Source: a virus
DNA length: 33,258 nt
Virus record (IMG/VR): IMGVR_UViG_3300032223_003546
Coordinates: 1-33,258 of that record
Direction: 5' to 3' (one strand)
A program made the translations under genes and the position numbers. Each line of letters begins with the position of its first letter. Positions within the stretch are counted from its first letter, which is position 1. Positions 1 to 33,226 of the stretch are shown here, in pieces. Below the pieces are notes generated by a model. The model made no database searches. It saw nothing but the letters and a program-made list of their open reading frames with translations, and was not told the origin of the DNA.

Positions 1-123
1 GAGGACATTCGCGGAAGGTTGAACGAAACCGTTCACGACATCGCCGGCGAATTTGCCCGCTATGCGGTGTTCGAGGAATTGCTGACGCCGCAGCGCGGCA
101 TGGTGCAACTGGCGTTGCTGTAA
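1..123 (+). CDS. 3' end of a flanking (probably host) gene
   Basis: An open frame enters from the left edge and ends at TAA (121-123). The visible last 40 residues end in RGMVQLALL and are not recognised. It is GC-rich and coding, and it lies on the opposite strand from the whole late operon, so it is most likely host DNA next to the insertion. The proposed element terminus (TGTAA, from 119) overlaps the last codons. The stop codon may therefore be supplied by the inserted element, which would make this a truncated gene. Function unknown. Confidence 0.5.
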   Translation, partial: EDIRGRLNETVHDIAGEFARYAVFEELLTPQRGMVQLALL

Positions 124-235
124 TTTGCCAAAAAAGAATTAAGTCGGGACATTAAAGTTAAGGTTGTCCCGATTCGACGGCATTCAAATTTAGAGAATCA
201 TAAAAAGGTTTTCAGCCACCAGAATTAGACATTGC
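119..235. repeat. Left end of the transposable prophage with transposase-type binding sites
   Basis: A non-coding, AT-rich stretch between the flanking gene and the last late gene. It contains TCGGGACA (144-151) facing its inverse TGTCCCGA (165-172), TCAAATTTAGAGA (184-196) and CAGAATTAGACAT (220-232). The last is matched exactly in inverted orientation at 33034-33046. The run AAAAAGAATTAAG (131-143) recurs inverted at 33124-33136. Several short sites in both orientations near an end that starts TG resemble the L1-L3 sites bound by MuA in phage Mu. The exact first base (119) is inferred from the TG rule only. Confidence 0.6.
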
Positions 236-272
236 AGACGCCATGCAGTCAACCTGCAATCACCCGCCAACC

Positions 273-1703
273 TCACGGCGCGAGCTGCTTGATTCGCACC
301 ACGCCGTTTGAGACGGACACACTCACCAACGCCAGACCGTTACTGTTGCCCGTCCAGAATCCACGGTCGCCCATGCCGTTGGTGATGCTCGCCAAGTTCC
401 ATGTGTTTGACGGGTAAAGCGTCCCCGCCGCCATCGTCACCGGCGCGTTAAAGGTGATGCTGCTGATCGACGACGCGCGCAGGCTGAAAAAGCGCATTGG
501 CTCGGTCAAATCCAGCGGCACGGTGAGCGTCACCACGCCAGTGTTAGTAACAACAGTATAATTAGTGAAAATCGTGAAGCTGCCACTCACCGCCAGATTG
601 GTTGAACTGTCCAGCTCCCAACCAGAAACGAAGTTGGTCTGGTAGGCGTTGATAATGAAGTTTGTGCCAGTGCCATCCACCGACGTGCTGGTGATGGGAA
701 CCCAATTTATCGTGTTGGCAAAATCGGCCAGCACCGCGCCGAAATACGAATACACAAAATGGTTCGTGTTGCCACTGATGGTCGTTGACCAGTTGTTATT
801 AAACGCGCTCGCGAATTTGTTGTCGGTGTAATTCTTCGTAGCGGCCTCGCGGGGGTCAATCGGGTCGTTGTATAAATCATGTTGTCCGAAGTGGCCATTC
901 ACCTTGCCGACGAGTTCAGGGTGATCCACAGAAAGTATCAATAGACCGCCCGGCTGCGGCAAACTGCCCGCGCTCAAAACCGCAACAGTAATGGCGTTGG
1001 TGGTTTGAAAACCATTCGTCAAGGTGAACCACGAAGTTGTGCCATCGTAGCTGCCGACGACACTACCTGCCTCGGCCATTGGTGGATTGCCGCCGTCGTT
1101 GCCGGGGTTAAGTCCAAACCGCGAGATGTTCGCCACGCGCCCGATGTAATTGGACGTAGCCCAGAAAGCGAAGTTCGTGTTGTAAGCGGTGTATTGAACG
1201 CTGCTCATGACGACGTTCGTGGGCAACGCGCCGCCGCCAGAACCAAGCAGCGCGAGCGTGGCCGCATCGAGCGCGTTGCTGTTCACCGTGCCGGTGACGA
1301 GGTTTGTGCCGTTGATGGTCAGGCGCTGGCCGTTGCCGCTGAACGTGCCGCCGAGGTTCGCCGTGCTGCTGTTATTGGTTACTGAATTTGTGCCAAAATA
1401 CGTGAGCTGATTATTGATCAGCGTGATAGCAATAGAATTGCTCAAAATTCCGGACTGCACGTAGGTGAAATTGTTATTTATTTTGCCAAAAGCCACCGGC
1501 AGAGTATCGCCAACAAATCTACCGCTATGATTTGTGTAAGAATAAGCAGTGTTGGTGCAGATTCCGGTGATGGTGATCTGTGCGGCACCACCCCCACCGC
1601 TGATGGGATTGGTGGAAACCGTGCTGATATCCACGGCTTGAATGTTGGTTTGAGCATAAACGGCACGTGCGCCGAGTGCTAAAATTAAGATGATTTTTTT
1701 CAT
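273..1703 (-). CDS. Exported Asn/Thr-rich protein, putative tail fibre or tip protein
   Basis: A 476-aa product with a clear Sec signal peptide: MKK, then hydrophobic ILILALGARAVYA with an AxA-type cleavage site near residue 17. The mature part is rich in Asn, Thr, Ser and Gly (repeated 'GTNL', 'TNFV', 'SNTW'), typical of beta-structured fibres or surface proteins. It is the last gene of the late operon, which in siphoviruses is where receptor-binding or fibre proteins lie. It starts 2 bp after the stop of the upstream gene. A signal peptide on a virion protein is odd. It could instead be a cargo surface protein of the host. No family is recognised. Confidence 0.6.
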   Translation of the reverse strand: MKKIILILALGARAVYAQTNIQAVDISTVSTNPISGGGGAAQITITGICTNTAYSYTNHSGRFVGDTLPVAFGKINNNFTYVQSGILSNSIAITLINNQLTYFGTNSVTNNSSTANLGGTFSGNGQRLTINGTNLVTGTVNSNALDAATLALLGSGGGALPTNVVMSSVQYTAYNTNFAFWATSNYIGRVANISRFGLNPGNDGGNPPMAEAGSVVGSYDGTTSWFTLTNGFQTTNAITVAVLSAGSLPQPGGLLILSVDHPELVGKVNGHFGQHDLYNDPIDPREAATKNYTDNKFASAFNNNWSTTISGNTNHFVYSYFGAVLADFANTINWVPITSTSVDGTGTNFIINAYQTNFVSGWELDSSTNLAVSGSFTIFTNYTVVTNTGVVTLTVPLDLTEPMRFFSLRASSISSITFNAPVTMAAGTLYPSNTWNLASITNGMGDRGFWTGNSNGLALVSVSVSNGVVRIKQLAP

Positions 1704-1704
1704 A

Positions 1705-2907
1705 TTATAGTCCTGAGTTTAAGTTGTCGCCGCCGTCATAGTTTGAACCTGCACTCGCATTCGGATTGCCCGCGCCAGCCACAGTGGATAAAGCGGGCGC
1801 ACCCCAGACCGCTGCCAACACGCCGAAGGCAGCACCCAAATCTGAAGGTAAAAAAATATGCTGGCCTTGTAGCAACGCGGGAAGCGCGAGCGGGCTCATA
1901 ACTGAAGAATTTGTTAGCGGGTCGTAAACCTGTTCAACAAAGGAATCGATTCCCGATGCAAACGTGAACGCCGAAGACATACAAGCAACAAAATCATAAG
2001 TCGAATTGGCCGGCGCACTCGTGGTCGAAGTCGGGATTGGAAACAGAAGATTACCCGTGGAACTTGGTGGCCATTCCAGCCAACTCGAATCTGCACTACT
2101 GAACGGATAACCAATTTTTACAGGCACACCGCGCGCGGCGACAACTAATCGCTGGCCACCTTGCCATGTGGTGGGGATGCATTGATTATTTTCTATCAAC
2201 TGGACGCCAGTTCCCGGCCAGTTGACAAACGCCGTTTTGCTGGCGGTTGCTACTTGGGTATTATAACAAATCAACAGCGACCGATAAGCCGATGCCAACT
2301 CCGTTCCAGCGGCGGGCGCAGCCAAACCCGTCGTGCGCAGGTCAGCGGGCTTGATGGCGGTATAGCCAGACGCCGGCGCGAGCAGAGTGGCATTAGACAA
2401 AAGCGCGGCGGCATCGCTAGTCGCATCGGCATAAGTCACCGGATCGGTTAGTTCGATCGTCACCTTGCCGTCGTCAAACGCCGGAAATGAAAAAAGATAG
2501 AGAGTGGCAAACGAATCCGTCGCGGTTACTGCGTAAACCCCATAAGGAATGGTCGCGTAGCTGGTAAATAAATTGATGTAGTTAGGATTTGAGCCACTTA
2601 AAGCGATGGAGTCATCGTGCAATATCGTTTCCACGCCGGTGGTGCGGTCAAACCGCGATAGCTTATACCCAATCAACACATTGCCCGCCTCATAAATTGA
2701 AATCTTTCGTGTAAGAAATTTAACCGAATTAAGTATGGGACTGGTTTCGCCGATTTTCGGCGTGGATGAAATATTGGTTCCGATTGAGCCACTGACCTTA
2801 CCGGCAATCAGTTGCCGATAAAAGTTATACGGCACCAAAGAAACCAGTTGCACCAAACCGGTATTGCCAGCGCAGCGGCAACCGCATTTTCCAAGTCCAT
2901 TTTTCAT
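1705..2907 (-). CDS. Late structural protein, probably tail tip associated
   Basis: A 400-aa protein with no recognised family. It begins MKNGLGKCGCRC, a short Cys cluster, has beta-rich Ser/Thr/Ala sequence and ends in a Gly/Asn-rich tail. It overlaps the upstream gene at a single base (2907) and is followed 2 bp later by the putative fibre gene, so it belongs to the tail-tip end of the late operon. It has no signal peptide. Its role as tip or fibre-adaptor protein is inferred from position only. Confidence 0.55.
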   Translation of the reverse strand: MKNGLGKCGCRCAGNTGLVQLVSLVPYNFYRQLIAGKVSGSIGTNISSTPKIGETSPILNSVKFLTRKISIYEAGNVLIGYKLSRFDRTTGVETILHDDSIALSGSNPNYINLFTSYATIPYGVYAVTATDSFATLYLFSFPAFDDGKVTIELTDPVTYADATSDAAALLSNATLLAPASGYTAIKPADLRTTGLAAPAAGTELASAYRSLLICYNTQVATASKTAFVNWPGTGVQLIENNQCIPTTWQGGQRLVVAARGVPVKIGYPFSSADSSWLEWPPSSTGNLLFPIPTSTTSAPANSTYDFVACMSSAFTFASGIDSFVEQVYDPLTNSSVMSPLALPALLQGQHIFLPSDLGAAFGVLAAVWGAPALSTVAGAGNPNASAGSNYDGGDNLNSGL

Positions 2908-3182
2908 TACCAGCCAGAAGGTTTAGCGAAACGCTCGCTCATCACGACCAACCGACAAAATTCAGCAGTCGTGCCGGCACCGCTGCCATCATCTTCACAG
3001 GTGACAATTTGCCAAACTTCGAGCGTATGCGGATTGCCGGCCGTGTCCAAGCAACCGCCGACCACAACCGATGAACCATCCGGCAAAGTAACCGACGATC
3101 CGCCAGCGACCGCGCCGCCAGCGGCCGGGTTGTTATACTTCGCCGCCGCCTTGATATTCAGAATGATTTTTCCTTGGGCCAT
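2907..3182 (-). CDS. Small late protein, 91 aa
   Basis: Begins MAQGKIILNIKAAAKYNN and contains a Gly/Ser-rich stretch and three Cys residues. It starts 3 bp after the stop of the large tail-tip protein and runs directly into the next gene, so it is co-translated with the tail-tip module. It could be a minor tail-tip component. No family is recognised. Confidence 0.55.
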   Translation of the reverse strand: MAQGKIILNIKAAAKYNNPAAGGAVAGGSSVTLPDGSSVVVGGCLDTAGNPHTLEVWQIVTCEDDGSGAGTTAEFCRLVVMSERFAKPSGW

Positions 3183-3185
3183 AAT

Positions 3186-5186
3186 TCACATGATGACGAG
3201 GTGTCCCTGATCTGCATCTTGCGTAACGCTGGTATTGGTCGGAGTTGAATAAACCACTTGTTGCGTAAAATCCGCATTGGCCGGCACAGAATTTTCGCGC
3301 GCGGCTTCGCTGCTCAAATCCACCTGTGTGGAACTGATGCCACCGGTCAAGCGTTGATACGCATCGATGCCCGTGCGGTTGCGGTTGCAGAATAGATTGG
3401 AAAGCTGAACGAGATAGCCGGGTTCCAAATGGTTTACCGGCCCGCAATTGATGCTGTGATGCGCCACCAGTTTGCCATCGGCATTGCGGAATAGCTCGAT
3501 ATTCACAATTTCCGGCACGGCATTCATCGATTGCCACGCCACGGCACCACCCGAAAGATTGATTTTGTGTTTCCCTGGCTTGATGAACGTCGGCAACGAG
3601 GTGGTGCTGGCCGCGACTTGAATGATTTCGTGCCGCAATTTCCATTGTAGGTCTGCCAGCTCGGTGTAAATGCGCTGGGCAAGATTCGCGGGAATGCTTT
3701 CGCCCGTGTTCAACGTCTGCTTGAGCCAATACTGACCGCTCGGCGCGTTGGTCAGTTTTAGACGCATCGAATGAAAATGGCGCGGGATTTTCTGAACCAC
3801 GGCCATTGTTCCCCCCGTTACTTTTTTGTATGAGAAAGCCCCAATCACATTCGCTTTGGCCACCACCACGGGCGTGGCCGGCGGGCCGGTGATTGTCATC
3901 CACGGGTAAACATCCGCGTCTGTATAATATTGGTAAGTGGAAAGATTGATGGCGGCGCCGGATTCATCCACCACTTGCAAACCATCGGGGTGGCCGCCGC
4001 CGCCGTTGATGGTCGTATCGAGCAACGCCAGCGCGCCCGCATTGCCATCATTCGGAATCTGGCCGCCTTCGGCAATCTGCTTGAGCGAATTCACCTTTTT
4101 CCGCCACAGATTCAGCGAAGTCGGGTCAAACGGATAGCTGACGAAATTGACAATCGTTTGCGCCGTGGCCGCGCCGGTGATATCGATGGAATAATCCAGC
4201 GCGAGCAAGCTGTTCGAGCTGCTGGGGTAACAATCGCTGGCGAAACTGATGACGTTCTGACCGTTGAATGTGCCGTTGATTTTGTAGAACAGCCGCACGG
4301 CATCCGGCACCAGCTCATCGAGCGATTGGATATCCGTGGCGATGTGCGTGATACCAGCGGCATCCGTGCTCTTGTAGGGCAATGTGATGGCCGTGAGATT
4401 GGCGCGATTGCGGAAATGCAACGTCGGCGGCGTGGTGCTGTAATCGATTTCCGTGAAGACGCCCGGATGCGGCCGCAGGCAAATGGTCAGCACTTCCGCG
4501 CATTTGGCCGAGCGCACCGGATACCAATTGCAATACACCGGCGTGAACTCCGCGCCAGATCCCGCCGACCAGACGCCGGCGGTCAGAGTTCCTCTGCCGG
4601 CGAGTTGCAACTGCACTGCATCATTGCCGCTGGCGTAGCTCGCCGCGAAACGGATGATATCTTGGATCTGTTGCCACGTGGAAATGGTGCCGCTGACGGC
4701 GGGCGGATTGTAAGTGGTGCTGGGCGCGGCCTGAAAGAGCACGATATCCGTGAATGGAAACGTCGAATACGTCGGGGCGGCAATCGTCCCGCCGGAAATA
4801 TAATTCCACGGAATGGAGTAAGTGACTTTCTCCAAATCTTTCCACGCATCGAGCAGCGTGATGGCTTGGCTCACGCGCGTGGCGCTGGCGCTGCCTTCAT
4901 TATCCCAGCGGCGACCTTGAAAAATCATGGTGCCGCCGTTGAAAGAATTGGCATTGCCGCTGCCGGAACTGCGCCCTGCCCACACGATGCAACGGCTCTT
5001 AAATGGGATTGCAATGGGCGTTTCCGGCGGTTGCGCCCAGGTGATTTCAAAGCTGCTGGCCGCATGACTGCGCGGCGTGAATTTGACGCGGTTGTTGGCC
5101 GGAACGCCTGCGAGATTAACGAGCGAAAGCGCGACTTCTTGGGTCGCGCCCAGCGCATCCACATATTGGAGCGTGTCGTAGATCAT
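3186..5186 (-). CDS. Large tail-tip/hub-like protein
   Basis: A 666-aa soluble protein directly downstream of the tape-measure gene (4-bp overlap at 5183-5186). In siphovirus tails this place is normally held by distal-tail or hub (gp27-like) proteins. The sequence is beta-rich with scattered aromatics (for example residues 1-110 and the 480-600 region, which contains LAQRIYTELADLQWK). No motif is diagnostic, and the hub assignment rests on size and synteny. Confidence 0.5.
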   Translation of the reverse strand: MIYDTLQYVDALGATQEVALSLVNLAGVPANNRVKFTPRSHAASSFEITWAQPPETPIAIPFKSRCIVWAGRSSGSGNANSFNGGTMIFQGRRWDNEGSASATRVSQAITLLDAWKDLEKVTYSIPWNYISGGTIAAPTYSTFPFTDIVLFQAAPSTTYNPPAVSGTISTWQQIQDIIRFAASYASGNDAVQLQLAGRGTLTAGVWSAGSGAEFTPVYCNWYPVRSAKCAEVLTICLRPHPGVFTEIDYSTTPPTLHFRNRANLTAITLPYKSTDAAGITHIATDIQSLDELVPDAVRLFYKINGTFNGQNVISFASDCYPSSSNSLLALDYSIDITGAATAQTIVNFVSYPFDPTSLNLWRKKVNSLKQIAEGGQIPNDGNAGALALLDTTINGGGGHPDGLQVVDESGAAINLSTYQYYTDADVYPWMTITGPPATPVVVAKANVIGAFSYKKVTGGTMAVVQKIPRHFHSMRLKLTNAPSGQYWLKQTLNTGESIPANLAQRIYTELADLQWKLRHEIIQVAASTTSLPTFIKPGKHKINLSGGAVAWQSMNAVPEIVNIELFRNADGKLVAHHSINCGPVNHLEPGYLVQLSNLFCNRNRTGIDAYQRLTGGISSTQVDLSSEAARENSVPANADFTQQVVYSTPTNTSVTQDADQGHLVIM

Positions 5187-6712
5187 CGCGATTGGCTAGG
5201 CATGGAACGGCTCTGGCGCTGGATGGCTAACAAATCGGCTTCCTGTTTTGATAACCGAGATTCCAAACCCACAAAGACGCTTTGCAGATTCAGCGTGTGA
5301 TTAAGAATGCCGCTGATGATGTTCAGCTTTTGTTGCTCGGTTAATTTCAGCACTGCCGCCAATTCGCCCAAAGATGCGTTGGTTTTGCCGCCGTGAGTAT
5401 TGACCACTTCCACCGCTGATTCGCCAGTGTCGGTGACGGACTGCACGCGCTGCGCCTGTTGGATTTCGCCCGGCAATTCGCGTAGCCGGCCACGGTTCGT
5501 TTCGCTCTCGCCAGTGGCTTCGGCAGCCCGAATGCCGGTTTCTTTTTCCTGTTCTTGCAATGGAAAAACTTTGGCGCTCAATTGCGCTTGCCGCGCCACT
5601 AGCCGATTAAATTCAGCGTTCGCGGCATCCACGGCCACTTGCGCATCCGCGATGGCTTTGGCCTTAATCGCATCGTGGTCAATCACCACGCTGCCGCCCT
5701 GGTCATCAGTGCCAACGGTTTCCTTGCCGCCGCGCATACCTTGCGCCGCCGCCATCAGATCTGCCGCGTCTTGTTGTTTTTTGGCCAGAGCTTTGCCCGC
5801 TGCTTTTGACGGGTCAAGCGCTTCATTGGCAAACGCTAATTCATCGGCGTTTTTCTTGTTTTCTTCTTTAGCCCTGCCCGCGAGTTCGACGGCTTCAATG
5901 GCTTTGCGCTGTAATTCGTAATCCTGCGCCGAGCGCATTTTCTGTTCTTGCTGCAAACCGCCCACGCCATCGGCAAATTCTTTTTGGGAATCAATCTTGG
6001 CCTCGGCCATGCGCATCCGCTCCTCGGCGGCGGCGATTTGCTGTTCAGTTCCGCCATGAGCACGTAACCAAGCGATTTCCTGTTTGCCGAGCGCTTCGAT
6101 GATTTTCTTGCTGGATTCGAGCTGCGCATCGGTGACGGCCTTGATGTTTTCAAGCTGCTTTTTGGTCGGGTCTTTTTCCGTGCCAGCCGTGTTCATTTCG
6201 GCGTAGTAATCGCCCAAGGCTTTTTTCGTATCGACCCACGCCTGCTTCAAGTCATCGATGGATTTTTGATGCTCGGTCAACTGCTCTTGGTTGAGTTCTT
6301 CTTCCTGCTTTTCGACATCCTCGATTTTCTTGCGGAGATATTCAAAAGCGGCGGTCAGCGCCAGCGCGGCGCCTACGGGGCCAAACGCCAATTCGCCGAG
6401 CGCGCGCCCCGCACCCGGAGCGACCACGTTGCCGATTTCGTTCAGCACCTTGCGCGTCTCGCGGTGGCTTAACGTTTCCAGTTCCACCGCTGGCACGACT
6501 TCGGATTTGATGGCGGCGGCAAGTTTGGATTTGGTCTTGGCGATTTCTTCATCCAGCCCCACGGCGCTCAGGCCCTGCACATTGGCGAGGCGCTGTTCTT
6601 CTTCCAACCGCACAAGCTGCGCGCGTAATTCAGCCGAAGACGCACCCGCCGATTTGAAGCCGGTATTATCGGCATCACTGACGATGTGGATTCTGAATTC
6701 TTGTTCGGCCAT
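5183..6712 (-). CDS. Tape measure protein (short)
   Basis: A 509-aa, strongly helical, charged protein. Coiled-coil stretches rich in E, K, Q and A cover about 25-70 and 125-400. A hydrophobic Gly/Ala segment (GRALGELAFGPVGAALALTAAF, about residues 103-124) is the typical single membrane-like segment of a tape measure. The start MAEQEFRIHIVSDADNTGFKSA resembles the beginning of many tape-measure proteins. If tail length scales at roughly 1.5 Å per residue, the tail would be short, about 75 nm. Neighbours are the exported fibre-like proteins upstream and the hub candidate downstream. Confidence 0.65.
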   Translation of the reverse strand: MAEQEFRIHIVSDADNTGFKSAGASSAELRAQLVRLEEEQRLANVQGLSAVGLDEEIAKTKSKLAAAIKSEVVPAVELETLSHRETRKVLNEIGNVVAPGAGRALGELAFGPVGAALALTAAFEYLRKKIEDVEKQEEELNQEQLTEHQKSIDDLKQAWVDTKKALGDYYAEMNTAGTEKDPTKKQLENIKAVTDAQLESSKKIIEALGKQEIAWLRAHGGTEQQIAAAEERMRMAEAKIDSQKEFADGVGGLQQEQKMRSAQDYELQRKAIEAVELAGRAKEENKKNADELAFANEALDPSKAAGKALAKKQQDAADLMAAAQGMRGGKETVGTDDQGGSVVIDHDAIKAKAIADAQVAVDAANAEFNRLVARQAQLSAKVFPLQEQEKETGIRAAEATGESETNRGRLRELPGEIQQAQRVQSVTDTGESAVEVVNTHGGKTNASLGELAAVLKLTEQQKLNIISGILNHTLNLQSVFVGLESRLSKQEADLLAIQRQSRSMPSQSR

Positions 6713-6730
6713 AAATTGAAGTGCCGCCAG

Positions 6731-7957
6731 TTATTTCGCCAAGCCCAGCCGATAACGATTCGTGTCGCCCGCAATTTGCACCGAAATCCACACCACTAAA
6801 TTCGTGCTGACCGGCGGCGTGTTCGTCGCGGAGAAAACCACTTGGTTCGTCGTGCCGGTGATGGTGAAGTATTTGGCGGTGACGTTCGTAGTCGTGGTGA
6901 CTTGATTTGAAATAATTCCGAAAAGGTTTGTCGTCGGCATTTGTCCAGATTGGTTCAAAACTGGATTACCGCGATAATGAAACCAGCCGTTCACAGTTGC
7001 TTTTCCACGACCAATTTCGGTGGTATCTGACAACCCTCCTAAAATGGTTGCTGGCGTGCCATTGCCGCCAGCAGGGTCACTTCCAATAGCGATGTTCCCA
7101 ACATTGGGGTCAACTGGGCCTCCAGAGTCATCTGCTTGAGCGTTTGCACCAATGGCAATGCCTCCGTTGTATGCCCAAGCACCCGAACCAATCCCAATAC
7201 CATAAGAACTTCCTTCCGCCGCAAAGCCAATTCCAACACCATTATCATTTCCGATTGACTGATAACCGATGGCAACTCCATTTGCTTTTCCAAAGCTGGT
7301 CACACCGATTGAAACACCTCTGTCCCATGCTTGAGACTGACTTCCAATAGCAATACCACTGTTGGTTCCAGTTGCTTGATAACCGATGTTTACTGATGAA
7401 TCATTTGTCCCAAATGCGTCGAAACTGAAAGCGATGCTGTTGCTTTTCGGGTTAAATCCGTTACCAGTGACATCCATTATATTATTTATTGAAACAATGT
7501 TGATATTGGTTCTAACACTAAACGTAAAGCTGCCCGTAAATGCACCACTCACATTCAAATTCGTGCCGGTGGCGTTGTTGATGTTGGTGCTGCTGGAATA
7601 AAAAATCTGCAATGGCGAAAACGCATTGGTGTTGATCAGCGTGTAGGCGGCCACGGTGTTCGTGCCATCAGCCACGTTGATGTGCGCGCTGCGCGGCCAG
7701 CCGTCCACGCGGATGGAGTAACCCCACGCCGCGAGGTTGGTGGTCACCGATCCGTTGGTCGGGTAAAGGTAGAACGGCGCGAGCGAAACGAGGTTGGTGC
7801 CAATCACGAGCGGATTCTGGTAAGTATCCGGCGTGACCAGGATGCTGCGATTGTTCACCGTGCCAGTGAGCGATTGCAACGTGAACAGCACCGGCGTGGC
7901 AAGCGCCGAGCCACAGATCAGCACAGATGAAACACAGATAAGAAATAGTTTTTTCAT
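6731..7957 (-). CDS. Exported fibre-like protein with YadA-head-type repeats
   Basis: A 408-aa protein. Residues 1-20 form a Sec signal peptide (MKK, hydrophobic core, GSALA cleavage site). Residues about 188-295 hold 14-16-residue repeats of the form IGYQA.G.NSG.AIG, GVAIGYQSIGNDNG and GIAIGANAQA. This is the NSVAIG-type pattern of YadA/Hia trimeric autotransporter heads, a left-handed beta-roll also found in phage fibres. There is no C-terminal autotransporter membrane anchor; the end is a Thr/Asn-rich beta segment. It lies between the tail tube candidate and the tape measure, and its start overlaps the upstream stop by ATGA. Likely a trimeric adhesin or fibre; the purpose of the signal peptide is unclear. 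Confidence 0.65.
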   Translation of the reverse strand: MKKLFLICVSSVLICGSALATPVLFTLQSLTGTVNNRSILVTPDTYQNPLVIGTNLVSLAPFYLYPTNGSVTTNLAAWGYSIRVDGWPRSAHINVADGTNTVAAYTLINTNAFSPLQIFYSSSTNINNATGTNLNVSGAFTGSFTFSVRTNINIVSINNIMDVTGNGFNPKSNSIAFSFDAFGTNDSSVNIGYQATGTNSGIAIGSQSQAWDRGVSIGVTSFGKANGVAIGYQSIGNDNGVGIGFAAEGSSYGIGIGSGAWAYNGGIAIGANAQADDSGGPVDPNVGNIAIGSDPAGGNGTPATILGGLSDTTEIGRGKATVNGWFHYRGNPVLNQSGQMPTTNLFGIISNQVTTTTNVTAKYFTITGTTNQVVFSATNTPPVSTNLVVWISVQIAGDTNRYRLGLAK

Positions 7958-24578: not shown

Positions 24579-25013
24579 ATGAGCAAAGACCAAACACCAA
24601 CGATTGATTGGGCTGAGGCCCGCCGGCTGGCCGCGCAGAGCGAGACGATGTGCAAGCTCATCCTCGCAGCGGTGAACGGCGCGGCCGCGCAGACCAGCGG
24701 CGGCACCAATCGCCTGGGCAAGCGGCAAGCGGCCAAGATTCCCGGCATGGTGGCGACGTGGTTTGGTTTTACCCGCAAGGATCTATTGACCGGTGGCCGC
24801 ACGGCGGAACTCGCCTGGGCGCGGCAAGTGGCGATGTATTTCTGCCGCGAACTCACGATCGCCACGATGGTGGATGTCGGAATCATTTTCGGCAAAGACC
24901 ACACGAATGTCGGCCACGCGGTGAACGTAGTCAACAACCGCATCGAAACGGAAGCGCGCACGGCGGAAGACATCATCGCCCTGCGCACCCACTTGTTACT
25001 CAAACTGAAATGA
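24579..25013 (+). CDS. Stand-alone DnaA domain-IV-like DNA-binding protein
   Basis: A 144-aa protein from ATG 24579 (a TTG at 24549 is less likely). Residues about 61-140 match DnaA domain IV: 'FGFTRKDLLTGGRTAELAWARQVAMYFCRELTIATMVDVGIIFGKDHTNVGHAV'. The line 'FG+DHT.V.HA' is the DnaA signature that contacts the DnaA box. There is no AAA+ domain, so it cannot be an initiator by itself. It could bind DnaA boxes to recruit or block host DnaA, or act as a regulator. It is coupled to the next gene by ATGA. Confidence 0.75.
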   Translation: MSKDQTPTIDWAEARRLAAQSETMCKLILAAVNGAAAQTSGGTNRLGKRQAAKIPGMVATWFGFTRKDLLTGGRTAELAWARQVAMYFCRELTIATMVDVGIIFGKDHTNVGHAVNVVNNRIETEARTAEDIIALRTHLLLKLK

Positions 25014-25639: not shown

Positions 25640-25640
25640 T

Positions 25641-25847
25641 ATGAACCAATCTTTCATCATCCTTTACGCGGGCGCGCCGATGAAGCTGCCGGAAATCCAG
25701 ATGTGCGAGCCGCGCGAAGCCACGGTGTTCGCCAACGAGGTGGATGCCTGGGCCGCCATCAAGAACCATTACATCACGGTGAAATATTGCCGCGTAGTGG
25801 ATCTCAATAAATACATCGAACAGGGACACAACCAATACGCATTCTGA
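25641..25847 (+). CDS. Small protein upstream of the transposase, 68 aa
   Basis: MNQSFIILYAGAPMKLPEIQMCEPREATVFANEVDAWAAIKNHYITVKYCRVVDLNKYIEQGHNQYAF. A small alpha/beta sequence with no recognised family. It starts 1 bp after the preceding stop and ends 2 bp before the transposase start, so it is translated with the transposase. Confidence 0.55.
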   Translation: MNQSFIILYAGAPMKLPEIQMCEPREATVFANEVDAWAAIKNHYITVKYCRVVDLNKYIEQGHNQYAF

Positions 25848-25849
25848 TT

Positions 25850-28027
25850 ATGGAAACTGTTGCCCCAGACTTTTTCAGCGCCAAGGACATCGCCCGCGCC
25901 ACCGGTGCCAGCAAGAAGACGGTGCAGCGCACAGCGCTGCGCGAAGGCTGGCCGGTGCGGCGCGATGGTAACAAAGACTTGTTCCAAGTTCCCGCGAACA
26001 TCGCCGCCATCATCATCGCCAAGCCGAGCGCGGATAAACGGTGCGAAGCCATCACAGTGCGTTTCGCCGACCTGACCGGCAACGATGCGCAGCGCGAAAA
26101 TGTGTTGCTGCGCGAGAAGGCCGTGAAGCTGGTGTCCGCCAATGCCGCGTTCGGCAAAGAGCGCGCGCTGGATCTGGTCATCGCGCACATGAATCAGGAG
26201 CATCCGCTGTTCAAGCTCGGCAACAAAATCACGTTGCGCCAGTGGATCACCAAATACGAACTGCACGGCATCGACGGTTTGGTGGAACAGAAACGCGGGC
26301 GCGTGGGCGTGAAACCGTTCGTGAACGATTTGACGGAAGAACAGATTTTGCAAGGCCGCGCCGCCGCCATCGAACACGGCAACGCCCGCCGCGGCGATGC
26401 CAAGGCGCAATTGAATATTGCCAGTGCGTTCCGCGACCTCGCGGGAATGCCCACCATCAACGGCAGCGCGCGCCGCTGGTTGCATGGCGGTTATGCTTCA
26501 AAATCTTATGTCCCGCCCTCGGTGCGCGATGCGCTCCGCACCCCTGAACTGGCCACCAAGCTAATCCAAATTGGCCCGAAAGCCATGAAGCTGGATGGGC
26601 CGTTCACGGAATGCACGTATGACAACGTGCCGGCGGGACATACTTTCACCGCCGACGATATGACGGCCAACGCCTACGTGTGGTGCGAATGGCCGAACGA
26701 TGAAGGCTTCCTGCTCATCCGCCCGCAGATTCTTGCCGTGTGCGATGTGGGCAGCCAGGCATGGTTGAACATTCGCGCCGTGATGCGCCCGAAAGGTCAA
26801 TACAACAAGGACGACGTGTGGGGACTCATCGGCGATACGCTCGACCAGTTCGGCCTCTACAAACAAGCGGTGCTGGAAGGCGGGACGTGGCAGAGCAGTC
26901 AGGTCATCGGCCAGAAAACGAATCTCGATGACGACACGCGCTTCGGCGGTTTGCGGTCGCTCGGCGTGAAGGTGATTCACACGCGCAGCCCACGCGGCAA
27001 GATCATCGAGCAGATGTTCAACGTGCTGCAACACGCGGCGGATAATGTGCCGGGCTTTTGCGGGCGCATGGAGATGAAAGATTGCCCCGAAGTGACCAAG
27101 AAGAACAAGGCGCTGGTCGATGCCGGCCACGCGCATCCGCGCCAGTTTTTCATGCACATCAGCCAATACACCGAGCACTTGAAGAAGGTGATGAATGAGC
27201 TAAACCACACGCGCAACGACGGCAAGGTGCTGCGCGGTGAAGCCCCGGCGGATAAATGGGCAGCCGACGCCCCGACCTTCGACGTCATGCCCGACCATGC
27301 GAAGTGGCTTTACCGTTCCGCGTATCGCGTGGTGGAAATCACCCGCAATGGCGTGCGCATCGGCGTGGGTTCCGGCCGCAACATGATTCACCACACCTGG
27401 TCGAATCCCGAAGCGTTGGAACAATGGCGCGGGCGCAAGGTCATCGTGTTCTGGAACGATTCAAATCCCGAAGCCGATGCGCTGATCTACTCCATCCGCA
27501 GCGGCAAGCAGGACAAGTTCATTGGCCGCGCCGAATATGTGAATCCGATTCCGCGCTTCGGTGCCAGCGATGAACAGGCCGAGAAGGAACTGCACCGCAA
27601 GAAACTTTCCACGCAGCTCGCCCGCACGCACGCGGCCAGCCTTGCACCCTATCTGCAACGCTCCACCAATACCCTTGCACCCGCGCCGGAACAGCTCGCC
27701 GTGGGCGAACGCATCCACGCCGCGCGCGTTCAAGCGGGCAAGCAAATCACGCAGCGCAAGAACGTCAAGCGCTTCACCGGCGACGCCGAGGCGTTGCTCG
27801 GCCATGCGCCGCGCGCGACGCAACCGGAAGATTTTCAGGCTGAATCCGATGAGCAGCAACCCTCGCCGCGCTGCGTGGTTTCGGAAAACGAAACTGCAGC
27901 ACGAATCGGGCACCCATCAGTCTCTGAGGAAAGCGCGAGCCGAGAGGCAGCCACGCCTGAAAACTTTGAAGTGAACCGCAACGAACAACACGAAACCGAA
28001 CTGACCACCGACGATTTGTTAGGCTGA
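25850..28027 (+). CDS. MuA-like transposase (DDE recombinase)
   Basis: A 725-aa protein, slightly longer than MuA (663). Residues about 8-50 are a MerR/Mu-type winged HTH (FSAKDIARATGASKKTVQRTALREGWPVRRDGNKDLF), which should bind the central control sites. About 80-215 would be the end-binding helices. The catalytic RNase H-like core is about 245-440: a first acid at D269/D270 (FTADDMTANAYVW), a second strand 'YKQAVLEGGTWQSS' (E343) and a third 'RGKIIEQMFN' (E387), lining up with MuA D269, D336 and E392. A beta-barrel follows (about 490-565), then a charged tail likely to contact the MuB-like ATPase. It catalyses integration and replicative transposition. Note Glu at the second acid. Confidence 0.8.
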   Translation: METVAPDFFSAKDIARATGASKKTVQRTALREGWPVRRDGNKDLFQVPANIAAIIIAKPSADKRCEAITVRFADLTGNDAQRENVLLREKAVKLVSANAAFGKERALDLVIAHMNQEHPLFKLGNKITLRQWITKYELHGIDGLVEQKRGRVGVKPFVNDLTEEQILQGRAAAIEHGNARRGDAKAQLNIASAFRDLAGMPTINGSARRWLHGGYASKSYVPPSVRDALRTPELATKLIQIGPKAMKLDGPFTECTYDNVPAGHTFTADDMTANAYVWCEWPNDEGFLLIRPQILAVCDVGSQAWLNIRAVMRPKGQYNKDDVWGLIGDTLDQFGLYKQAVLEGGTWQSSQVIGQKTNLDDDTRFGGLRSLGVKVIHTRSPRGKIIEQMFNVLQHAADNVPGFCGRMEMKDCPEVTKKNKALVDAGHAHPRQFFMHISQYTEHLKKVMNELNHTRNDGKVLRGEAPADKWAADAPTFDVMPDHAKWLYRSAYRVVEITRNGVRIGVGSGRNMIHHTWSNPEALEQWRGRKVIVFWNDSNPEADALIYSIRSGKQDKFIGRAEYVNPIPRFGASDEQAEKELHRKKLSTQLARTHAASLAPYLQRSTNTLAPAPEQLAVGERIHAARVQAGKQITQRKNVKRFTGDAEALLGHAPRATQPEDFQAESDEQQPSPRCVVSENETAARIGHPSVSEESASREAATPENFEVNRNEQHETELTTDDLLG

Positions 28028-28055
28028 AAAATTAACCATCAACACAAAAGGGACT

Positions 28056-29225
28056 ATGAGCACTACCACTGAAACACCAGATGCCGCTGTCGCGGCGATT
28101 CCGCAGAAAAATTCCGGCAATACCGTGCGCGCTTCGTGGCGCTATTCGCTGGATGATATTCGCCCGAATATCCAGACCTACAATGCCGATGCCAAGGCCG
28201 CGCTGATCTCCGCTTTCCTCTGGTGCATTGACCCGCGCCATCCGGTGAGCCAGGGCGATTTCGCCAAGCGCGTCGGCACCAGCGAAAACACGCTCTACAA
28301 GCTCTACATGGGCAAATACGAGCACCCCACCAGCAAGGAAAAGATGGGGCCGAGCACCGAGCTGGTGCGCAACATCAACAACTTTCTCGACCTCGAAAAA
28401 GAACGCTTCCAATCCGGCGAGACGCAACTGGTCATCACGCCCACGCTCAAGAAGATTGTCACGGCCTGCGAGCTGGCGCGCGAGAGCAACAGCATCGTGT
28501 TCATCGTCGGGCCGTCGCACGTGGGCAAGACGTGGGCGGCAGAACGGCATTACACGCCGAACAATAACCACGGCCGCACGGTTTATATCCGCTTGCAAGC
28601 CGCCAGCGGCCTCGGTGGCATGGTGCGCCGGATTGCCGAGCGCGTGGGCGTTTCGCCCAAGGGCAACACCGCCGACCTCGTGGCGAGCATCAAGCACGCG
28701 CTGAGTCAGGATATGCTCATCATCATTGATGAGGTTCACTTGCTGGCGCACACGTATCGCGCAGGCAGTTTTCATAACTGTATGGAAGTCATCCGCGAGA
28801 TTCACGATGAAACCCGCTGCGGCATGGTGCTGATGTTCACGCTGCTCGACCAGGTGAAAGCGGCCAGCCAAAAGGAATTGCAACAGCTCTGGCGGCGCGG
28901 CGTTCACAAAGTGATGTTGCCAGCCATGCCGAGCAAGGGCGACCTCGCGGCGATTCTGAACCACAACGGCCTCGATTTTCCTGACCGCGATTTCAAGGTG
29001 AGCATCACATTCAAGGACGGCAACAAGAAAGCGACCATCGAAGAATGTCCCTACGAAATCTTGCGCCAAGTTTCCAAGAACGAGGCGCTGCTCGCCATCA
29101 CCGAGCGCCTGCGCTACGCCCGCAAGCTGGCGAACAAGGCCGGTGAAAAGCTGGACTGGAAACATTTCGTGACCGCGCATCTGCTCATCGCCAAACAAAG
29201 TTCCCAAGAAGAAGACTGGGACTAA
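28056..29225 (+). CDS. MuB-like AAA+ ATPase (target selection)
   Basis: A 389-aa protein. Residues about 60-90 are an HTH (SQGDFAKRVGTSENTLYKLYMGKY), as in MuB's N-terminal domain. Walker A is GPSHVGKT (152-159), Walker B LIIIDE (221-226). Around 267-300, 'QLWRRGVHKVMLPAMPSKGDL' fits the sensor region. It is longer than MuB (312 aa). It binds target DNA with ATP, activates the transposase and gives target immunity. It directly follows the transposase, as in Mu and Tn7-like systems. Confidence 0.8.
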   Translation: MSTTTETPDAAVAAIPQKNSGNTVRASWRYSLDDIRPNIQTYNADAKAALISAFLWCIDPRHPVSQGDFAKRVGTSENTLYKLYMGKYEHPTSKEKMGPSTELVRNINNFLDLEKERFQSGETQLVITPTLKKIVTACELARESNSIVFIVGPSHVGKTWAAERHYTPNNNHGRTVYIRLQAASGLGGMVRRIAERVGVSPKGNTADLVASIKHALSQDMLIIIDEVHLLAHTYRAGSFHNCMEVIREIHDETRCGMVLMFTLLDQVKAASQKELQQLWRRGVHKVMLPAMPSKGDLAAILNHNGLDFPDRDFKVSITFKDGNKKATIEECPYEILRQVSKNEALLAITERLRYARKLANKAGEKLDWKHFVTAHLLIAKQSSQEEDWD

Positions 29226-29267
29226 GCAGCGTGACGCTGCACTCCACCATCAACTAATAAAAATATT

Positions 29268-29825
29268 ATGCCAAAATCAAATAAATCAGCGACCCATGTG
29301 CGCCTTGTAAAAGCTGTTAATGGTTTAATGGGAATCGTCGAAGGTGTTCAGAATGTTCGGTGGTCATATCAAGGCCGCCGACTCGTTGACACAAAAGAAT
29401 GGTGCGAACTCTATTGCGCGTGGCGCGAACTGCGGCGCAAAGAAGATTTGGCCTGGATGAAAAAAACCAAGCCTGCTTTGTTTCGTGAAATTAAACGAAT
29501 TGTTCGCGGTTCAAAAACACAACTCATCACTCTAACCCTCGCAGTTCTGGCTCTGGCTGGCTGCGCGACTGAACCGAAAAACACCTGCGTGTTGTTGAAG
29601 TTTCAACACACCCCCTCGCGCACGGTCATTGAAACGCTGGCGCAAACCCAGCCGGCCAGCGACCGCCAAGCCATCCTCGCATGGTTCCAAGTGCAGAATG
29701 AAACCGGTTTTATCCTGCGCGGCGACCATACCAACGCCATCGCCGCCGCTATTGCCGATGGCGCGACGGCCACGGTGATTCATCAAGGCGGCAGTTCCAT
29801 GCTGGTGAGCTACGGCAAACGCTGA
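29268..29825 (+). CDS. ORF with an internal lipoprotein signal
   Basis: A 185-aa frame. Residues 1-63 are soluble and basic (HVRLVKAVNGLMGIVEGVQNVRWSYQGRRLVDTKEWCELYCAWREL...). From Met64 (29457) the sequence reads as a lipoprotein signal: MKKTKPALFREIKRIVRGSKTQ, then LITLTLAVLALAGC. The mature part (CATEPKNTCVLLKFQHTPSRTVIETLAQTQPAS...) is small and may be an outer-membrane lipoprotein. Either two genes are fused in frame, or the smaller protein starts at 29457. Codon and base use of the first part is more AT-rich than neighbours. No family is recognised. Confidence 0.5.
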   Translation: MPKSNKSATHVRLVKAVNGLMGIVEGVQNVRWSYQGRRLVDTKEWCELYCAWRELRRKEDLAWMKKTKPALFREIKRIVRGSKTQLITLTLAVLALAGCATEPKNTCVLLKFQHTPSRTVIETLAQTQPASDRQAILAWFQVQNETGFILRGDHTNAIAAAIADGATATVIHQGGSSMLVSYGKR

Positions 29826-29852
29826 TTTTAACCAAAACCAAAAACTAAACAC

Positions 29853-30185
29853 ATGAAAACGAAAGAACAATTGACGGAAGATGTCGGGCTGGTGCGCGAC
29901 ATCGAAGCGTGGTGCAGCGCGTTCTGCGCCAATGATAACGAACGTAATTTCCGCGATGCCCTGTTCCGCAAGGCGTATGCGGAATTGCCCAAGCTGGAAA
30001 ACATCGCCCACGTGCGCCGCATCAATGAGGCGTTGTGCGGCATGGATTTTCCCAGCGCCACGGCGCTCGGCTTGCGCGAAGGCGTGCTGAAACGCCTGGC
30101 GGAACATCACAAGCTGAAAGATTACCGCAACGTGAAGATGCCCAACATCACCGTGCCGCCGCAACCCGCCAGCAGCCGCAACTGA
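29853..30185 (+). CDS. Helical early protein, 110 aa
   Basis: MKTKEQLTEDVGLVRDIEAWCSAFCANDNERNFRDALFRKAYAELPKLENIAHVRRINEALCGMDFPS... This is a soluble helical sequence with two Cys near the start and a Pro-rich tail. It follows the lipoprotein gene by 27 bp after an A-rich leader. No family is recognised. Confidence 0.55.
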   Translation: MKTKEQLTEDVGLVRDIEAWCSAFCANDNERNFRDALFRKAYAELPKLENIAHVRRINEALCGMDFPSATALGLREGVLKRLAEHHKLKDYRNVKMPNITVPPQPASSRN

Positions 30186-30256
30186 TGAAGGCATTGGCCA
30201 CCATAAATTTCGGCGCCGAAATAGAACACGGCGTCGGAAACTCAAAAACCAGCAGG

Positions 30257-30293
30257 GCGCAATCATGCCGGATTTTCTGCCGGAAGGTTGCGC
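30257..30293. promoter_or_regulatory. Hairpin upstream of the tyrosine recombinase
   Basis: GCGCAA (30257-30262) pairs with TTGCGC (30288-30293), and CCGG with CCGG inside, around a loop of 8 bases with an internal bulge. It lies 27 bp before the recombinase start. It could be a regulatory hairpin or, given the IntI-like enzyme, a recombination site. It lacks a clean GTTRRRY core, so an integron site is not supported. The rest of 30186-30320 has a 44-codon frame of doubtful value. Confidence 0.3.
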
Positions 30294-30320
30294 TCTGCAC
30301 TGCCTCGAACCATTGATTCT

Positions 30321-31328
30321 ATGGAAAAGTTCCGTATATCATACCCGGCTGGCAGTGTTCCGGCGCTGCTGTTGGCTGAATGTGAGTTTCGCCATTTCAA
30401 GCGTAACACGTTCAAGGCTTACAACACCTGGTTGATGCGGTTCTGGAATTTCCACGGTAAGAAACCAGTCCGCGACCTGCGCGAGTCGGAGATTAAATCG
30501 TTTTTGGCCTCGCTCCGCCACGGTTCGGCCAGCGCCCAGGATCAGGCGTTCAACGCCCTGATTTTCCTCTATAAGCACGTCCTGAAAATCGAGCTGGGCA
30601 AGCTGGATGAAATTCCGCGCGCAAAGAAATTCAAAGGCATCCCGGTGGTGCTCTCGCCGCTGGAAGTGCGGGCGATGCTGGCGCATCTGTCCGGTGACGA
30701 GCAGTTGCAGGCGGAAATGCTTTATGGCTCCGGAATGCGCTTGATGGAACTCTTCCTCCTGCGCGTGAAGGAATTGGATTATGCGAACGGCCAGATCATT
30801 GTGATGGATGGCAAGGGCGGTCATCGGCGCACGCTATTGCCGATGTCGGTGCGTGACCGGCTGCTGACCCATTTGCAACTTCGCCAGGCGGAGCATCGGC
30901 GGGATTTGGAGCATGGCATCTTTGCGCCGATTCCGAACGGGTTGGATAAAAAGTTTCCATCGGCCTGCAAGGAGTTTGGTTGGCAATATGTGTTTGCCTC
31001 CTCGGTGGCGCGGCGGGGTGAGCGCTGGCACGCGACGGAAACGAAGTTGCAGAAGGCCATCCACGCGGCCTATATCGCCGCCGGCATTCACAAGAAAGCC
31101 GGGTGCCATACGCTGCGCCACAGTTTCGCCACCCATCTGCTGCAAGCCGGCTATAATATCCGGACGGTTCAGGCGTTGCTCGGTCACAAGGATGTGAAGA
31201 CGACGGAGATTTACACCCATGTCTCAACGCTTTCGCCCAAGGAAATCACTAGCCCGGCAGATCAGGTCTGCGTGCCGGTGCGTCCGGTGATAGAGATTGG
31301 CTATCCCTCGCCACTTTTACTCAAATGA
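30321..31328 (+). CDS. Tyrosine recombinase, integron-integrase-like
   Basis: A 335-aa protein from ATG 30321 (a TTG at 30288 would add 11 residues). The SAM-like N-terminal domain is followed by the catalytic domain: Arg140 (YGSGMRLMEL), Lys165 (DGKGGHRRTLLP), H263-x-x-R266 (HTLRHSFATHLL), His289 (LLGHKDVKTTEIYTHV) and Tyr298. Residues about 217-250 hold an extra stretch (KEFGWQYVFASSVARRGERWHATETKLQKAIHAA), like the IntI-specific patch ('W.WVF...R...RRHH....LQRA'), and the end 'ITSPADQV' resembles IntI 'V.SPLD'. It may resolve cointegrates or mobilise genes. It overlaps the ASCH gene (ATGA). Confidence 0.85.
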   Translation: MEKFRISYPAGSVPALLLAECEFRHFKRNTFKAYNTWLMRFWNFHGKKPVRDLRESEIKSFLASLRHGSASAQDQAFNALIFLYKHVLKIELGKLDEIPRAKKFKGIPVVLSPLEVRAMLAHLSGDEQLQAEMLYGSGMRLMELFLLRVKELDYANGQIIVMDGKGGHRRTLLPMSVRDRLLTHLQLRQAEHRRDLEHGIFAPIPNGLDKKFPSACKEFGWQYVFASSVARRGERWHATETKLQKAIHAAYIAAGIHKKAGCHTLRHSFATHLLQAGYNIRTVQALLGHKDVKTTEIYTHVSTLSPKEITSPADQVCVPVRPVIEIGYPSPLLLK

Positions 31329-31834
31329 AAGCACTCTCCATCCGCCAGCCGTGGGCATGGCTCATCGTGAACGGTTTCAAAGACGTGGAAAACCGCACCA
31401 AGCGGTCGCACCATCGCGGGCCGCTGGCCATCCACGCCAGCGCCACGATGACCAAAGGCGATTACGAGGCTTGCTGCCTGTTCATCAACAGCATGGAAAT
31501 CACGGATGAAAAGCTGCGGCAATTGGTCGTATCGTTCCCCACGTTCGAGCAGCTAAAACCGTTGTGCGGCGGCATCGTGGGCGAGGCGGTGATGACGGAT
31601 TGCGTCTCGCAATCTGATTCGCCGTGGTTTGTGGGCGAGTTCGGCTATGTGCTGACCAACGCCCAGCCGCAACCGTTCCGCCCATTCAAAGGCGCGCTGA
31701 GTTTCTTCGAGGTGCCAGCGGTATCAAATGATACCAATCCAGTAACTAGCAATTGCTGCGGTGCGGCGTTCGCTTATCCGGGCTGGCCGGATAATGACAT
31801 TTGCAGCAAATGCAAGGAGCACGCCGAGCCATGA
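31325..31834 (+). CDS. ASCH-domain protein with C-terminal zinc-ribbon
   Basis: A 169-aa protein. 'MKALSIRQPWAWLIVNGFKDVENRTKRSHHRGPLAIHAS' is the classic ASCH start (SIRQPWA..I..G.K.VENR), a PUA-like barrel that binds nucleic acids or modified bases. 'GGIVGEAVMTDCVSQSDSPWFVGEFGYVLTNAQPQPFRPFKGALSFFEV' completes the domain. Residues about 143-165 (NCCGAAF...DICSKCKEH) form a C4-type zinc knuckle. It overlaps the neighbours by 4 bp on both sides. Substrate unknown. Confidence 0.8.
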   Translation: MKALSIRQPWAWLIVNGFKDVENRTKRSHHRGPLAIHASATMTKGDYEACCLFINSMEITDEKLRQLVVSFPTFEQLKPLCGGIVGEAVMTDCVSQSDSPWFVGEFGYVLTNAQPQPFRPFKGALSFFEVPAVSNDTNPVTSNCCGAAFAYPGWPDNDICSKCKEHAEP

Positions 31835-32043
31835 AACGTTTCCGTTCCGAAATTACCCAGGTATTTGCCACGCCGCAGGCCGAGGCGGATGCCATCGAAT
31901 GGTTTTTGGAACAGTCGGCAACGGTTCGCCGGATGTTTCGCAGTAATCCCAATGCGGCGGCGCAGTTCAAATCGGATGGCTATAAAATGGCCGTGGATCT
32001 GCGGCTGGTTTCGCTGCGCCAAGTGCTTTCCCATCGTTTATGA
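31831..32043 (+). CDS. Small protein, 70 aa
   Basis: ATG 31831 overlaps the ASCH stop (ATGA), which decides the start. MKRFRSEITQVFATPQAEADAIEWFLEQSATVRRMFRSNPNAAAQFKSDGYKMAVDLRLVSLRQVLSHRL is helical and basic. It overlaps the next gene by 4 bp. No family is recognised. Confidence 0.6.
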   Translation: MKRFRSEITQVFATPQAEADAIEWFLEQSATVRRMFRSNPNAAAQFKSDGYKMAVDLRLVSLRQVLSHRL

Positions 32044-32516
32044 CTGTGGCCGAACTCATCACGGATGTCAGCCGCTGTGTGCGCAATAGTTTCTACGCGG
32101 ATAAGCCGGCGCGGGATTATCTGCGGGATGAGCGGGCGATTACCCGGGCGATTGCTCGTTACGGGGTGGAATGTGAGCGCCGTGGCTGGCATTTTCAGGT
32201 GGATTTCATCTTTCACGACCTGTTGCAACTGCTGAAAGCCATCAAATTGACCAATGCGGATATCCAATATCTGCCGGTCTATCTCGAAGGGGCAGTAGAT
32301 CGGCATATTCGGATGCGCGCGGATGAGCTGAATGCCGCCGCCAAGACGGCCAAAAACGTGGATGTGGTCGCCAGCCGGATCGTGGCCGGCGTGCAACGGG
32401 TGGCCGTGGTGGAAAAATCGACGGTGGAAACGCTGGCGCTGCTGTATAAAGACCTGAAGAAACGCAAGAAACCGACCACCAAAACGGTGGTGGCTAAGCA
32501 AGGGAGTTTGTTATGA
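32040..32516 (+). CDS. Helical protein, 158 aa
   Basis: MTVAELITDVSRCVRNSFYADKPARDYLRDERAITRAIARYGVECERRGWHFQVDFIFHDLLQLLKAIKLTNADIQYLPVYLEGAVDRHI... Helical, with a basic Lys-rich tail (KDLKKRKKPTTKTVVAKQ). It lies directly before the GemA-like gene and is coupled to it by ATGA. No family is recognised; probably a DNA-associated early protein. Confidence 0.55.
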   Translation: MTVAELITDVSRCVRNSFYADKPARDYLRDERAITRAIARYGVECERRGWHFQVDFIFHDLLQLLKAIKLTNADIQYLPVYLEGAVDRHIRMRADELNAAAKTAKNVDVVASRIVAGVQRVAVVEKSTVETLALLYKDLKKRKKPTTKTVVAKQGSLL

Positions 32517-33034
32517 GTCTTTCCAGCGCTCAAAAGGGGTTTATCAAGCGCGCCCAGATTGAGGCTGGCATCACTGATTTTGATTATCGCAGCAGCGTGG
32601 CCACGGTGAGCGGCATGGCGGATTGCACCAGTTCCACCGATCCGCGCCTGACCGACCGGCACTTCGATTTGCTCATGGGTTTCTTTGATGCCATCCACTG
32701 GCGGGCCGTGGATGCTGGCACCTTGCAACCGAGCTGCAAGGCAAATGCAGTCTTCCGTAAACGGGGTTATTGGGCGGCTAAAAATCCTCGCGGAAACACC
32801 AGCCGCGACCGTTACGCCGGCGGAGATCTGTCCCAAGAGATTGCCCAGGTGGAAGCCGAGCTGGCCAAGCACGGTTACGGCCTCGCCTACTTTCAAGCCA
32901 TCCAAAACAATCTGCGGCGCAATGGTGGATTCAGCCCGGCAGCTTATCTGGGTGCCATCAAACGCACGCTCACTTCCAAAACTCGCAAGGCGGCTGTTCC
33001 AACTTCGCAGAGCGCAGACGGCAATCCGTTCTGA
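32513..33034 (+). CDS. GemA/Mu gp16-like protein (DUF1018 type)
   Basis: A 173-aa protein. Residues about 4-60 (SSAQKGFIKRAQIEAGITDFDYRSSVATVSGMADCTSSTDPRLTDRHFDLLMGFFD) follow the Mu GemA pattern 'K..IHV...ELGL.D..YR..L....G..S...LT..E...L...L'. A second part (120-160) is helical. GemA modulates host gene expression and DNA supercoiling in Mu. It is the last gene of the right arm; its stop codon touches the first right-end motif. The match is partial. Confidence 0.6.
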   Translation: MSLSSAQKGFIKRAQIEAGITDFDYRSSVATVSGMADCTSSTDPRLTDRHFDLLMGFFDAIHWRAVDAGTLQPSCKANAVFRKRGYWAAKNPRGNTSRDRYAGGDLSQEIAQVEAELAKHGYGLAYFQAIQNNLRRNGGFSPAAYLGAIKRTLTSKTRKAAVPTSQSADGNPF

Positions 33035-33226
33035 TGTCTAATTCTGATTTGGTTTTCGGGCGCAGTTTTGTCTAAATCTAAATTCTTTTCTGTCCCGATT
33101 TTGACCCGTTTTCCTGTCTCGAAACTTAATTCTTTTTGTGAAGCCGCGCAGTTTTCAGAAAGTGAATTTCATCCAGTCTTTTCAAGGCGAATCAATCTAA
33201 ATCAAGGCTGTCCCGTTCCTTAATAG
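33034..33226. repeat. Right end of the element with repeated transposase-type sites
   Basis: Non-coding and AT-rich. Sites of the form TGTC(C/T)... occur at 33035, 33069, 33091, 33115 and 33209. ATGTCTAATTCTG (33034-33046) is an exact 13-bp inverse of the left end. CTTAATTCTTTTT (33124-33136) is the exact inverse of 131-143. The block 'TCTAAATC...CTGTCCCG' occurs twice (33071-33097 and 33194-33215). CA at 33149-33150 would give an end at about the same distance from its TGTC site as at the left end, but the second block suggests the end may lie further right. 33227-33258 shows nothing I can name. Confidence 0.55.

Follow-up and report, generated by a model that had tools for sequence, protein, structure and literature searches.

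The virus contig IMGVR_UViG_3300032223_003546 of IMG/VR, which we analyzed over its whole length of 33,258 bases (hereafter, the window), very probably represents a nearly complete temperate phage of Verrucomicrobia with Mu-type replicative transposition and a layout similar to that of phage B3. Computation established which genes the element has, on which strands they lie, where it ends, and that its layout is conserved; the steps of induction, transposition, and packaging are inferred by analogy with Mu and B3. An initial annotation had described a divergent Mu-type phage with its genetic switch in the middle, forming a separate lineage with a layout of its own. Our results support this description in part: the lineage is indeed separate, but the layout is not new. 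A more unusual feature than the layout is the transposase, which carries a fixed replacement of aspartate by glutamate in its active site.

The window is composed of two opposite arms. The minus strand left of 22.8 kilobases (kb) carries 22 called genes of the late type, occupying 90% of positions 119-22,797; they encode tail and connector proteins, an HK97-type capsid protein, an S78 protease, a portal-MuF fusion, both terminase subunits, and a lipase. The plus strand right of 22.8 kb carries 16 called genes of the early type, occupying 91% of positions 22,798-33,040; their products include a MuA-like transposase, a MuB-like ATPase, an integron-type integrase, an ASCH protein, and a GemA-like protein. 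The features that define the element are as follows:

13052-14470, minus strand, HK97-type major capsid protein (PF05065, E = 4.8e-23)
14522-15208, minus strand, S78 prohead protease (PF04586, E = 1.1e-12)
15218-17521, minus strand, HK97-type portal fused to a MuF-like C-terminal domain (PF04860, E = 3.6e-42; PF04233, E = 2.6e-6, just under the cutoff)
17682-19115, minus strand, terminase large subunit of the Mu gp28/B3 type (PF17289/PF03237)
19112-19666, minus strand, terminase small subunit of the Mu gp27 type (phrog_426, E = 6.7e-10; PF11985, E = 9.6e-6, just under the cutoff)
22429-22797, minus strand, helix-turn-helix (HTH) repressor (PF13560, PF01381)
22828-22860, plus strand, early promoter-like hexamers with two copies of GTATTGTCAC, a candidate operator
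22879-23070, plus strand, small HTH-like early gene in the Ner position, named from sequence and position (no family match)
25850-28027, plus strand, MuA-like transposase (phrog_310, E = 3.7e-29)
28056-29225, plus strand, MuB-like AAA+ ATPase (phrog_296, E = 7.5e-29; PF13401)
32513-33034, plus strand, GemA (Mu gp16)-like protein at the outer end of the early arm

Strand coverage, the HTH repressor, and the promoter-like site thus bear out the proposed divergent arms with a repressor and an early promoter region between them. Similarly, the phrog and Pfam matches agree with the parts named in the initial annotation, namely, MuA/MuB-like proteins, a gp27/gp28 terminase, and an HK97-type portal, protease, and capsid. 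With an RNase H-fold transposase of the MuA kind, a MuB-like ATPase, and a gp27/gp28-type terminase, the element has the gene set of a transposable phage. The late genes, which had been placed left of about 21.6 kb, are on the minus strand as stated, but they start well to the left of the switch. Within the switch, the copies of GTATTGTCAC are located at 22,836 and 22,851. This 10-mer by itself lies within chance expectation (24 of 100 shuffles of the window reach two matches), and we read it as a candidate operator because its copies sit on the promoter-like site.

The transposase profile aligned end to end with that of the Mu group (hhalign E = 3.2e-12). Using the catalytic residues of MuA given in PMC3362531, we found that D269/D270 of the window protein align with MuA D269, E343 with D336, and E387 with E392. 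The 29 family members that we examined, including those with an identity as low as about 23-30%, all have glutamate at the second catalytic position, mostly inside an E-G/R/N-G motif. The eight transposases of named phages (Mu, D3112, KS10, B3, Lsp-JY19, Aussie, Mwe-Yong1, and vB_PeaS-P1) all have aspartate there. Because a structural model of the full-length protein was poor [mean predicted local distance difference test (pLDDT) score, 50.6], it was replaced by a model of the catalytic region built with 17 sequences (mean pLDDT, 83.8; predicted template modeling score, 0.78). In this model, the first strand carries D269/D270; E343 is found where strand beta-4, the one behind the first long helix, ends, and E387 where the helix behind the next strand begins. 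Judged by the order of strands and helices in the model, the three residues occupy the canonical catalytic positions. A sequence-profile search of solved structures gave no match for the transposase, but fold comparison did: the top Foldseek match of the catalytic model was the Mu transpososome (4fcy, E = 6.5e-15), and comparison with the MuA core (1bcm) gave a template modeling score of 0.69-0.70 by target length. E343 may take a catalytic role in a D-E-E site. A literature search for "DEE motif" together with transposase found no paper, which is not proof of novelty. The D-E-E family, so far known mainly from Verrucomicrobia and environmental virus contigs, would offer a natural test of how strict the DDE rule is in Mu-type strand transfer.

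The presence of E343 in place of MuA D336 could also mean that the transposase is dead and that the element is immobile or domesticated, being moved instead by the integron-type integrase encoded in the early arm:

30288-31328, plus strand, integron-type integrase (TIGR02249, 317 bits; cutoff, 265)

We consider this improbable. All 29 of 29 family members, the distant ones among them, have the glutamate together with an open reading frame, a pattern that is not decay; in RuvC-type RNase H folds, glutamate is normal at this strand position. In addition, the integrase had no match in the relatives. We regard it as cargo. A search for attC sites near the integrase showed three scattered GTTRRRY boxes and no evident array.

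An 11-base pair (bp) motif, TCTAAWTYTGA, is common to both ends of the element and the switch region:

184-229, minus strand, two copies with a spacing of 35 bp close to the left end, candidate transposase sites
21740-21887, gap on the upstream side of the late operon with three copies, candidate internal transposase or enhancer sites
33037-33081, plus strand, two copies with a spacing of 34 bp close to the right end

Allowing at most one mismatch, the motif occurs eight times in the window, as compared to a chance mean of 1.24, and none of 100 shuffles reached eight; seven of the eight copies lie either near an end or within the 21.7-21.9-kb gap. Across six genomes, 36 of 46 matches fell into the end and switch zones, which make up about 12% of the sequence, and 200 shuffled motifs gave at most six matches there, a comparison whose p-value is overstated since the motif was chosen after the window had been seen, some palindromic sites were counted twice, and the zones were set by the analyst. 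Better support than the shuffle p-value comes from the pairs spaced about 35 bp apart, which recur at the ends of the window, G001, and G012. We read the end copies as candidate transposase sites. The central copies could be either an enhancer, which is what the internal activating sequence of Mu represents, or the sites of a regulator. A few copies are found between late genes in G001, G002, and G005, and this favors regulator sites. The combined proposal, a catalytically used D-E-E triad and a shared motif whose central copies enhance transposition over the 11-22 kb that separate them from the ends, is offered tentatively, as one that may well fail. B3 and Lsp-JY19 showed no 11-mer shared by ends and switch at one mismatch.

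We delimited the element by comparing its outer sequences with those of relatives:

119-150, left (late-side) terminus, R-type, TGTAATTTGCCAAAAAAGAATTAAGTCGGGACA
33085-33240, right (early-side) terminus, L-type: proximal end-like site, spacer of about 90 bp, distal end-like site

The left end starts with TGTAATTT at position 119, and G001 begins with the same TGTAATTT; TGTA starts were also found at the corresponding ends of G003, G004, G005, G012, and G013. The right terminus was aligned with G003, G005, G012, and G013. Positions 33,150-33,240, which the initial annotation had left outside the element, are conserved in relatives, and the prophage G013, which lies in a genome of Verrucomicrobia subdivision 3, provides the corresponding insertion site. 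In genomes of the G013-host family, a glycosyltransferase gene directly follows tRNA-Val. In G013, the two genes are split by about 37.7 kb, including the conserved L-type end. This empty site places the right end of the window near 33,240 and rules out that the conserved right flank is host target DNA. Thus, of the extent proposed earlier (119-33150), the left boundary holds, and the right one is moved outward. At the junctions of G013, host sequence ends in ..AATCAAA and resumes at CAAAGTTCC, with CAAA on both sides, and a target duplication of four to five bases is possible.

The two types of terminus differ in structure. An R-type end starts with TGTA and has one site, while an L-type end is built of a distal and a proximal end-like site with a spacer between them that holds a TTGATTTAGGTTGAAAG-like sequence. 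By our reading, the L-type end of the window and of G005 lies next to GemA, and that of G003, G012, and G013 lies on the late side; in G010, a weaker form is on the repressor side. The comparison used window positions 33085-33258 and the ends of L032, L042, L033, L027, and L040. On this basis of few sequences aligned by eye, a swap of sides by the asymmetric ends relative to the arms between close relatives is likely but not proven.

Subsequently, we compared the layout with those of known transposable phages; BcepMu and phiE255 were left out. The contrast drawn earlier with Mu holds, as Mu and D3112 have the repressor at one end. Mu (Escherichia) shares with the window the transposase fold, the order of catalytic residues, MuB, GemA, and the gp27/gp28 terminase, and differs in its one-direction layout with the repressor at the left end, its DDE residues, and its Mu-type portal and head. 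With divergent arms and a transposase lacking DDE, the window does not belong to Muvirus. B3 is closer in plan: its Mor, GemA, transposition genes, and regulators are on one strand (124-9,904), and its repressor and all late genes are on the other from 9,990. Like B3, the window has two opposite arms split by regulatory genes and the repressor, GemA near one end, the transposase and MuB-like ATPase in the early arm, and a gp27/gp28 terminase whose large subunit is 57.5% identical. In contrast, the B3 transposase is unrelated at the profile level (hhalign probability, 0.1) and has Asp as its second catalytic residue, and the portal of B3 is of the Mu gp29 type and its head genes are Mu-like, where the window has HK97-type ones. 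Since only the large terminase matched B3 in tblastn and the transposase profiles are unrelated, the window is also not a Beetrevirus.

The same general plan, already published as the B3 organization, is found in other phages. Lsp-JY19 (a Leptolyngbya phage) has a plan very similar to that of B3. Leptospira transposable prophages have opposite left and right arms with one to three regulatory genes between them and no Mor/C; they differ by their myovirus-like tails and B3/Tn552-type transposase (PMC8705779). KS10 (Burkholderia) has a minus-strand late block and repressor facing a plus-strand HTH gene and transposase; it differs by a head module split between the arms and a D3112-like transposase with DDE. 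Mu-type transposition combined with an HK97-type head, which might be taken as a mark of novelty, is already present in Aussie (Sinorhizobium) and Mwe-Yong1 (Microcystis). Both have the same Pfam set as the window, with MuA/MuB, a gp27/gp28 terminase (56-58%), portal-MuF, S78 protease, and HK97 capsid. They differ by their DDE-type transposases and show no tblastn similarity beyond the terminase, and Aussie follows the one-direction order of Mu with the repressor near the left end.

Next, we examined relatives of the element. Divergent arms recurred in all seven well-covered closer relatives (G001, G002, G003, G004, G005, G012, and G013), and the strands of terminase and transposase indicate the same for G006, G008, L020, and L070. 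That the two arms might occur separately in related genomes, an outcome that would have spoken against the initial reading, is borne out in part by two relatives. G001, whose transposase is 82% identical, carries it beside a different large terminase (30-33% identity). In G010 (L039/L040; 64% terminase and 39% transposase identity), the early arm is reversed, and the same head block occurs with all genes on one strand in the order of Mu, showing that arms can flip. The view that the central switch is a distinctly new layout and a derived innovation of this lineage draws on the conservation in seven relatives and on the end position of the repressor in Mu and D3112. It is nevertheless very improbable, being already refuted by the B3 record and PMC8705779; Lsp-JY19 shares the layout, and KS10 has the divergent repressor/transposase junction. 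We consider the layout question closed: divergent arms occur with B3-type, D3112-type (KS10), and DEE-type transposases. Together with the other order in G010, this makes orientation look like a recurring, switchable trait rather than the mark of one lineage. Last, a Mu-like early arm and an HK97-type prophage unrelated to it could have been joined by chimerism or misassembly, which the HK97-type rather than Mu-type head genes and the other large terminase of G001, the closest transposase relative, might suggest. This can be dismissed almost entirely, as the same arm pair occurs in the same order on independent contigs and a 165-kb host contig and terminus-type sequences are present at both outer ends.

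The claim of a separate lineage was confirmed by the transposase tree and by searches against 50,697 deposited phage records. In the tree, the family has long branches and is set apart from the transposases of Mu, D3112/KS10, and B3 type. Among the phage records, neither the transposase, nor three of its more distantly related family members, nor the GemA-like protein had a match. The portal and MuB reached about 25-27% identity, the capsid did not exceed 24%, and the large terminase alone was close (56-61% identity to B3, Aussie, StopSmel, Lsp-JY19, and Mwe-Yong1). The relatives were found in virus contigs and in a metagenome-assembled genome of Verrucomicrobia subdivision 3 (the 165-kb contig), and 29 of 384 sampled genomes of this class matched the transposase, many of them distantly. 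We conclude that the element belongs to a separate lineage of Verrucomicrobia prophages; it provides an entry to transposable phages of this phylum, for which the phage records searched hold no close relative. Pirellulales and Patescibacteria were rejected as hosts, since only the query bin matched in each case (Planctomycetota, 1 of 149; Patescibacteria, 1 of 192); the two bins containing this phage (L020 and L021) are probably mis-binned.

By analogy with Mu and B3, the small HTH repressor would silence the divergent early promoter near 22.83 kb in the prophage. Its release would allow expression of the rightward early operon, including the Ner-position gene, the transposase, the MuB-like ATPase, and the GemA-like protein. 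The transposase would then bind both ends and the ATPase would bring target DNA, so that the element is copied to new sites. Expression of the leftward late operon would follow, supplying terminase, portal-MuF, protease, capsid, and tail, and the DNA would be packaged by the gp27/gp28-type terminase. Several observations weigh against this reading. GemA was recognized only by comparison of its profile with GemA of Mu, B3, and D3112 (probability, 92.7; E = 4.4e-7). The flanks of G013 share CAAA and not a full target-site duplication, and no full duplication was found for the window itself. Neither a late activator of the Mor/C kind nor a holin was identified in the window, and no inducibility is known. 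For the tail, neither a sheath or baseplate family match nor a positive marker was found, and the siphovirus assignment made earlier is tentative.

The remaining genes of note are as follows:

273-12124, minus strand, tail and connector genes (adaptor phrog_442; weak PF05069 for gpG; conservation in relatives)
3186-5186, minus strand, tail-region gene within this block
5183-6712, minus strand, tape measure-like gene within this block
10975-11544, minus strand, gpG-like gene (weak PF05069)
11489-12124, minus strand, head-tail adaptor (phrog_442)
20345-21094, minus strand, class 3 lipase, first in the late operon (PF01764, E = 1.6e-34)
21,911-22,399, small lipoprotein-like gene between the late genes and the repressor
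23272-23886, plus strand, early gene, positional counterpart of B3 ORF13 (named DUF3102 by position only; no family match)

The gene at 23272-23886 is conserved upstream of the transposase in relatives. Just upstream of the transposase, the gene at 25010-25639 has no family match, and by eye, the C-terminal part of its product resembles a lytic transglycosylase. The class 3 lipase is kept in most of the closer relatives (G001, G002, G003, G012, and G013).

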